Source: Ailanthus altissimus (taxonomy: Eukaryota > Streptophyta > Magnoliopsida > Sapindales > Simaroubaceae). From it: 64,000 bases of DNA. Position 1 is the stretch's first letter. Every line of letters begins with the position of its first letter. The DNA lies in assembly GCA_946807835.1 (NCBI GenBank), contig OX327702.1:12772001-12836000 (forward strand), read 5' to 3'. This document shows, in pieces, positions 27,090 through 27,640 of the stretch. The notes under the pieces were generated by a model. The model was not told where the DNA came from. It ran no database searches and saw nothing but the letters and a program-made list of their open reading frames with translations. Both the position numbers and the translations under genes were made by a program.

Positions 27090-27640
27090 TTATAAACGAA
27101 GTGTCAGATCTAATTTTCGCTTGTTAAGGCCCACTGACCAATCGATCCGAGTTATTGCTGGGTCAGGTTCGTAGGTAACTGCCTGTAATTTGTCAATCAA
27201 TTCATCAGCCTCGGTAGCAGAAACTAGGATCTATAGGTTTTCAGTGGATATTCAACTGGGCCCAAGAGGCAATTTGAAAAATTTCTTCCAAGGTACCAAA
27301 ACCACCTGGTAAAGTAATAAAAGTGTCTGCATTGTAAAGCATTCTAACTATACGTTCATGCATAGATGAGATTCGTAATTCTTCTCCTATTGTTTTTCCA
27401 GTCAAGTTTTCCATGGTAAAGCTGTAGGAATGATACCTAAAACTTGACTTCCTCCTAAATGTGCAGTTGTTGACACACACCCCATTAACCCAAGGCTACC
27501 CCCTCCATAAATCAAATGAATTTTTCTTGTAGCTAATGTTTTTCCTAGATTGTTTGGTTGCTTTTACAAACACTTTATTCCTCCTAGGACTAGATCCACA
27601 AAATACACATATATTTCAAAATTATTGAACTGGGGTTTCC
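27090..27640 (-). pseudogene. LOG-like cytokinin riboside monophosphate phosphoribohydrolase, copy B
   Basis: Minus strand, in order: NICVFCGSS (about 27600-27620), KVFVKATK, then after a frameshift LGKTLATRKIHLIYGGGSLG (YGGGS at 27495-27509) and STTAHLGGSQVLGIIPTAL, then after another shift MENLTGKTIGEEL, MHERIVRM, ADTFITLPGGFGTLEE (motif at 27283-27309) and SWAQLNIH, a stop, KPI, and after an internal deletion ILVSATEADELIDKL with a basic end, stopping at 27090. These are hallmark LOG motifs, including the PGGxGTxxE active site and the conserved Arg of MHER. LOG acts in the cytosol to free active cytokinin bases. Segments that would be separated by introns in plant LOG genes are contiguous, indicating capture from a spliced transcript. 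It lies between the extra ORF and the noncoding tail. Two frameshifts, stops and a deletion of about 30 codons make it inactive as it stands. Confidence 0.87.

Follow-up and report, generated by a model that had tools for sequence, protein, structure and literature searches.

Plant gypsy elements frequently hold extra open reading frames (ORFs) whose use is mostly unknown, and Steinbauerova et al. in 2011 reportedly described two Athila-like elements similar to LOGL4. Alvarado-Marchena et al. (2022, PMC9289625) named a YgdH domain, which occurs in LONELY GUY (LOG) proteins, in consensus sequences of gypsy elements from two Citrus species and, with a filter off, from Populus trichocarpa, a finding in line with the Steinbauerova et al. 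study cited there. LOG in gypsy elements is already known, and the capture itself is not new. Here, we describe LOG-carrying retrotransposons of Ailanthus altissimus, starting from a 64,000-nucleotide stretch of contig OX327702.1 (positions 12,772,001 to 12,836,000, forward strand; hereafter the window), which contains two decayed members of such a family, elements A and B.

A LOG-family domain inside plant Ty3/gypsy elements is common to our case and to that of PMC9289625. In the passages of the latter considered here the domain is only named, whereas the present data show two element classes and intact copies, a single clade with changes in the pocket, counts bearing on selection, transfer in antisense and a neighbour ORF resembling viral nucleic-acid-binding proteins (NABP). 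The same paper describes an orchid gypsy element with an AlkB RNA demethylase, likewise an extra enzyme gene with a proposed use against host control; that enzyme is a different one and was assayed in vitro, whereas the element LOG is known from sequence. The literature searches made found no earlier report of the scale, the antisense transfer, the remodelled pocket or the virus-like neighbour ORF, and the available parts of PMC7264820, PMC8087826 and PMC11593424 hold nothing on LOG in elements. On balance, we favor the reading that Athila-type elements carry an intronless LOG, likely derived from a spliced host mRNA and apparently under purifying selection, which also lies in antisense in a second lineage and is predicted to encode a nucleotide phosphoribohydrolase with an altered base pocket, one that would accept a substrate in place of, or in addition to, the classical cytokinin nucleotides.

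LOG-carrying elements in the genome and in the window

The genome (939,062,666 bases in 37 contigs) was searched with the LOG domain profile PF03641, which returned 4943 first-look candidates. The 150 that were scored, a ranked list from which the share of broken copies is not readable, all lay above the cut-off without a stop inside the match. Three full copies scored 137-139 bits (cut-off 27), and the domain match in intact relatives had E-values of 5e-41 and 6e-41, too low for a chance resemblance. A 30-base LOG stretch matched the genome 1284 times with at most two mismatches and its reversed control did not match at all; the form of this stretch found in the second element class gave 580 exact matches. 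Nine loci with wide flanks were then assigned to class 1 (E1, E2, E3 and E9) or class 2 (E4-E8). The initial annotation of the window had suggested that the family may once have expressed a hormone-activating enzyme. Further members were indeed found as intact class 1 elements with LOG, but carriage is not a matter of the past only: intact LOG copies are common in the genome, and the gene is also present in antisense in a second lineage. Contamination or an assembly artefact was considered and ruled out, with LOG matches on most chromosomes and 5-base target duplications at two elements and one solo long terminal repeat (LTR).

LTR pairs of 1438-1439 bases, 99.2, 99.6 and 99.9% identical, bound three of the four class 1 loci; E1 showed no LTR pair within the stretch examined. 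In E9, a single 1839-amino-acid gag-pol frame (gag, protease below the cut-off, reverse transcriptase, RNase H and integrase) is followed by an extra frame, ORF2, and then by LOG. Its termini are TG...CA and its target duplication is TCTAG. The second RNase H (aRH) that marks Tat elements (PMC6317226) was not found in the E9 gag-pol frame, for which Pfam gives RT_RNaseH models only. The E9 LTR is followed by TGGCGCCGTTGCCGGGGA, a primer site other than that for tRNA-Met, and the site of element B is near-identical. We take TGGCGCCGTTGCCGGGGA to be of the tRNA-Asp type. Because no second RNase H was found and the primer site is presumably Asp-type, class 1 and the window elements were assigned to Athila; on the features tested, class 1, and element B in part, would belong to this lineage rather than to Tat, which leaves the Athila half of the earlier Tat/Athila label standing and removes the other.

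Element B retains relics in the order gag, protease, reverse transcriptase, RNase H, integrase, extra ORF and LOG, between LTRs that are about 92-93% identical to each other. Its features, all on the minus strand, are:

24167-36235, minus: element B as a whole, an Athila-type relic carrying LOG
34688-36235, minus: 5' LTR, a direct repeat with 24167-25732; outer end uncertain
34665-34682, minus: primer-binding-site-like stretch TGGCGCCGTTGTCGGGGA, read in the sequence
31580-33812, minus: gag and protease part (tblastn)
29957-31573, minus: reverse transcriptase and RNase H (tblastn; RVT_1 profile on one piece)
28769-29956, minus: integrase (tblastn; rve profile on one piece)
27975-28520, minus: extra ORF (tblastn; 66% over 182 amino acids to the Viral_NABP-like ORF2 of class 1)
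27093-27645, minus: LOG, intronless, with stops and frame changes (tblastn with class 1 and class 2 LOG)
24167-25732, minus: 3' LTR, a direct repeat with 34688-36235; inner end uncertain

With an intact relative as tblastn query, the LOG of element B is matched in two minus-strand pieces, 27645-27232 and 27230-27093. The YGGGS, MHER and PGGFGTLEE blocks that had first drawn attention to it are real, with MHER and PGGFGTLEE in one frame and YGGGS in another, and in both elements the gene lies 3' of the integrase and extra ORF. Equally well founded were the statements that the LOG copies of A and B are intronless, lie on the coding strand of their elements and are broken, B by stops and frame changes and A by deletion of its first half. 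The following were located in element A:

501-799, minus: C-terminal part of LOG, from about codon 124 to the end (blastn and tblastn)
831-929, minus: LOG 5' flank, adjoining the deletion (blastn to class 1)
4076-4643, minus: extra ORF, NABP-like (tblastn)
4888-6576, minus: integrase and RNase H relics (tblastn)

The C-terminal half of LOG had been placed at 505-865 in element A; such a part is present, but this range is slightly too wide, as coding matches run from 799 to 501. Since 831-929 corresponds to the stretch just upstream of an intact LOG, the missing first half was lost by internal deletion. A 558-base unit is repeated three times in tandem at 907-2577 (92-96% identical), starting within the LOG 5' flank of this element.

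Origin of the element LOG and its presence in a second lineage

A full element LOG copy matched At2g37210 (AtLOG3) with an E-value of 3.8e-67; the element LOG has the LOG fold, and both classes have the PGGxGTxxE motif with the catalytic Arg and Glu. Separate from the element copies, the genome holds 18 exon-like matches of at least 70% identity to an AtLOG3 peptide. Six of these loci (L058-L063) and a further host locus, L028, were examined. L062 has introns after all six points (LV, VIG, LMPRE, ALPG, DKP and KLE), the other five have them at those points that their stretch covers, and L028 shows three. Because the element LOG crosses all six L062 intron positions without an intron, it likely came from a spliced host mRNA, as had been proposed for the window copies.

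The relationships of the element LOG were analyzed in a tree of 48 rows, including 33 of the best 120 homologs, chosen for source and spread; these 120, out of 7928 LOG matches, are not representative of the whole family. A clade with support of 100/98 unites 34 LOGs from Ailanthus (classes 1 and 2), Populus, Reevesia, Diplodiscus, Paulownia and unnamed sources, the surrounding element being seen in Ailanthus only. Three Xanthoceras LOGs are sister to it (99/95), and seven host LOGs (two of them partial), AtLOG3 and AtLOG8 group outside the element clade (83/88). The capture had been thought to predate the divergence of A and B. What can be said is that it preceded the split between classes 1 and 2, which are sisters (99/95) within the clade; A and B are too broken for the tree, and B has the same pocket changes as the intact copies. 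Two NCBI LOGL10 entries of Populus trichocarpa (P0017 and P0088) also fall inside the element clade, so that host gene names may have been given here to genes of transposons. Plant LOG gene counts may thus include transposon genes, a hazard for annotation.

Class 2 elements have different LTRs. Simple pairs of 2.72 kb were found in E4 (100% identical), E7 (98.2%) and E8 (98.8%); E5 has been rearranged, and in E6 two elements form a tandem pair. The members of this pair (L019 and L020) lie about 6.5 kb apart, similar spacings occur on contigs C17 and C27, and such tandem pairs are expected from LTR-LTR recombination. No pol was found in class 2, and no chromovirus reverse transcriptase or chromodomain frame is left. 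LOG is preceded by an orphan ORF that has one database relative (98% identical) and no Pfam match. In E6 this ORF spans 397 codons from its first Met; E4 and E7 have it interrupted, and in E5 its start is changed. A segment made up of the class 2 LOG, about 70 bases upstream and about 130 downstream shows 79.5% identity to class 1, and nothing in the remaining internal region matches class 1.

On the strand to which LOG is antisense, the class 2 LTR has TG...CA ends, a tRNA-Met-type primer site, TGGTATCAGAGC, follows 8 bases after it, and the purine tract AAGGAGGGGAGAAT precedes the other LTR. E4 is flanked by CTAAT. The end of a frame before the LTR can be read as V-K-N-F-E-D-E-I, which we take to recall Tekay/Del chromoviruses. 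According to Neumann et al. (PMC6317226), tRNA-Met primers are used by Ty1/copia and most chromoviruses and not by gypsy elements outside the chromoviruses, Athila and Tat among them; the class 2 spacing of 8 bases is wider than the 0-5 bases between LTR and primer site in their survey. Class 2 resembles the tRNA-Met-primed lineages in having this primer site and the purine tract on one strand, and differs from them in being without detected pol and in carrying LOG and the orphan ORF in antisense. Because its tRNA-Met-type primer site lies on the strand opposite to LOG, we regard class 2 as another lineage with an antisense LOG. With other LTRs, no pol and an antisense gene, class 2 so indicates that LOG has passed between retrotransposon lineages, and the antisense cassette suggests that elements of more than one kind benefit from LOG.

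Base pocket, selection and possible roles

In the numbering of CgLOG (PMC4979012), the catalytic residues are Arg99 and Glu122, adenine is bound by Met96, Lys100 and Glu121, and the proposed prenyl site consists of Met96, His97, Lys100, Glu125 and Trp129, the last two of which are supplied by the other subunit of the dimer. Among the best 120 homologs, Arg99 is kept in 114, Glu122 in 118, Trp129 in all 120, Met96 in 98 and His97 in 54. Lys100 is kept in only eight, being replaced by Met (48), Leu (39) or Ile (25), and Glu125 also in eight, with Gln in 59, His in 50 and other residues in three. Classes 1 and 2 have Ile or Met for Lys100 and Gln for Glu125, which departs from the prenyl site of cytokinin LOGs, and element B shows the same changes. 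Lys and Glu are present at these positions in AtLOG3, AtLOG8 and the host LOGs, as far as the compared stretches reach. Because of this, and since the four Lys100 keepers viewed in full are Xanthoceras proteins, the pocket change most likely arose inside the element clade and was then kept. These four proteins (P0002, P0003, P0006 and P0048) are placed as the sister group of the element clade. Three of them contain duplicated LOG pieces, and the four may represent genes of the host, elements of an early type or gene models that were merged.

The element LOG shares its fold, the PGGxGTxxE motif and the catalytic Arg and Glu with AtLOG3, AtLOG8, bacterial type-I CgLOG and PaLOG, and differs from them in its replaced Lys100 and Glu125, its lack of introns and its location in retrotransposons. 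Retention of family, fold and catalytic residues would also suit an ordinary cytokinin-activating LOG. Plant LOGs produce active cytokinin (PMC8234997), and more of it where the element is transcribed could favor dividing or meristem cells, making new insertions heritable. AtLOG3 and all other cytokinin LOGs in the comparison of PMC4979012 have, however, the same residues at Lys100 and Glu125, and each of the two is replaced in 112 of the 120 best homologs, in element B and in both classes. We consider this explanation unlikely, and the hormone-activating enzyme of the initial annotation doubtful. Each LOG active site takes residues from both subunits of the dimer, and a changed-pocket subunit could also form mixed dimers with host LOG and alter or block its activity. 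CgLOG Glu125 is one of the residues supplied by the neighboring subunit and is changed in those 112 homologs, which fits such a poison; the other, Trp129, is kept throughout, and the protein has retained a catalytic Arg and Glu of its own, residues that would be dispensable if it acted purely as a poison. Such a role seems very improbable to us.

Codon comparisons suggest that LOG is constrained. Between class 1 and class 2, dN/dS was 0.26-0.36 (12 pairs) at a dS of about 0.5, with a bootstrap range of 0.19-0.45 for E9-E4; two of three pairs within class 2 gave 0.08 and 0.11, and class 1 pairs yielded no ratio (division by zero). Counts between class 1 and relics A and B were set aside because most were saturated; five comparisons with B gave no dS that could be used. 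For variant counts, 46 LOG matches of at least 600 bases were reduced to 37 by removing five repeated places and four gapped copies. Nonsynonymous to synonymous counts were 47:15 for singletons and 13:8 for shared variants in class 1 (n = 30), and 15:7 and 5:17 in class 2 (n = 7), with a neutral expectation of about 2.7. The contrast between shared and singleton variants had a Fisher p of 0.006 in class 2 and 0.0008 in both classes together. In addition, 43 columns are invariant across 38 homologs of about 60-70% identity. LOG appears to have been kept intact by purifying selection in transposing lineages.

Several observations weigh against the reading we favor. The third class 2 pair gave a dN/dS of 0.50, and in class 1 alone the contrast between shared and singleton variants was not significant (Fisher p 0.26). 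The class 2 sample has only seven copies, a tandem pair included, and copies were chosen by LOG similarity, so support for selection falls short of proof. Inner stops occur in nine of the 30 class 1 LOGs; among nine copies inspected singly, three have one stop in common and two pairs share other stops. Since the stops are shared, defective copies were multiplied, perhaps in trans. Finally, alanine at the AMP-site residues of CgLOG, Lys100 among them, nearly abolished activity, with one exception (PMC4979012, section 6), so the pocket change could mean lost activity rather than a new substrate.

Multiplied copies with inner stops and the lack of significant selection among class 1 variants would be expected of a passenger, captured once and riding with successful elements, its conservation stemming from young copies and from the picking of top scorers. 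The dN/dS between classes at a dS of about 0.5, the 43 invariant columns, the catalytic residues kept in 95-98% and the presence of LOG in two lineages argue against this, and we judge it rather improbable. Under the favored reading of a selected enzyme with an altered pocket, and if, as we infer, the LOG protein is made and active, it would alter the state of nucleotides or hormones in the cell for the benefit of the element, possibly by giving dividing cells an advantage or by clearing a nucleotide that is modified or serves in signalling. As an extra ORF, the element LOG has intact copies, an enzyme fold that is already known and relatives with solved structures, and it allows a clear prediction, namely that catalysis is kept and the substrate changed.

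The neighboring ORF2 and the rest of the window

ORF2, which precedes LOG in class 1, matches Viral_NABP (PF05515) in all three copies, with 31.3, 30.7 and 26.6 bits (cut-off 23), the match falling in its Arg-rich and cysteine-rich part. It has 547 database relatives, including proteins of Xanthoceras, Acer, Populus and Rhamnella; among 36 homologs selected from the best 120 of these, 34 match PF05515 and 34 match Carla_C4 at an E-value of 0.01 or better. The structure model was poor (pLDDT 64, pTM 0.29). ORF2 thus matches, as a predicted nucleic-acid-binding protein, the carlavirus family. It scores above the PF05515 cut-off as the Viral_NABP and Carla_C4 proteins of plant RNA viruses do, and differs from them in being encoded by an LTR retrotransposon. 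No report of a NABP-type ORF in a gypsy element was recognized among the papers listed by the literature searches, which proves little. Protein clusters P0129 (ORF2) and P0050 (LOG) name the same longest contig of 8723 bases, a hint that one contig may carry both. We offer only tentatively the idea that the pocket-rewired LOG is a mobile accessory enzyme, moving as a cassette between Athila-type and tRNA-Met-primed (chromovirus-type) elements and forming, with the carlavirus-type protein, a counter-defence or cell-state kit that would destroy or make a signalling nucleotide.

One further feature of the window is related to class 2:

50866-53714, no strand assigned: solo LTR of class 2 type (blastn, 94.5%), with a 135-base insert at 50920-51054 and ACCGC at both flanks

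It sits between gag/protease stretches of the plus-strand region 45992-57637 that are repeated at 46095-48704, 49230-50157 and 54689-57094 and are about 93-95% identical to one another. A 288-codon open frame at 58295-59161 matches Transposase_32 (PF20167, a putative plant transposon protein) with an E-value of 3e-46. Two regions, 7684-16262 and 37922-45920, contain repeats of about 2.8 kb in direct and inverted orientation; these share about 80-87% identity and look like LTRs of other, older elements.
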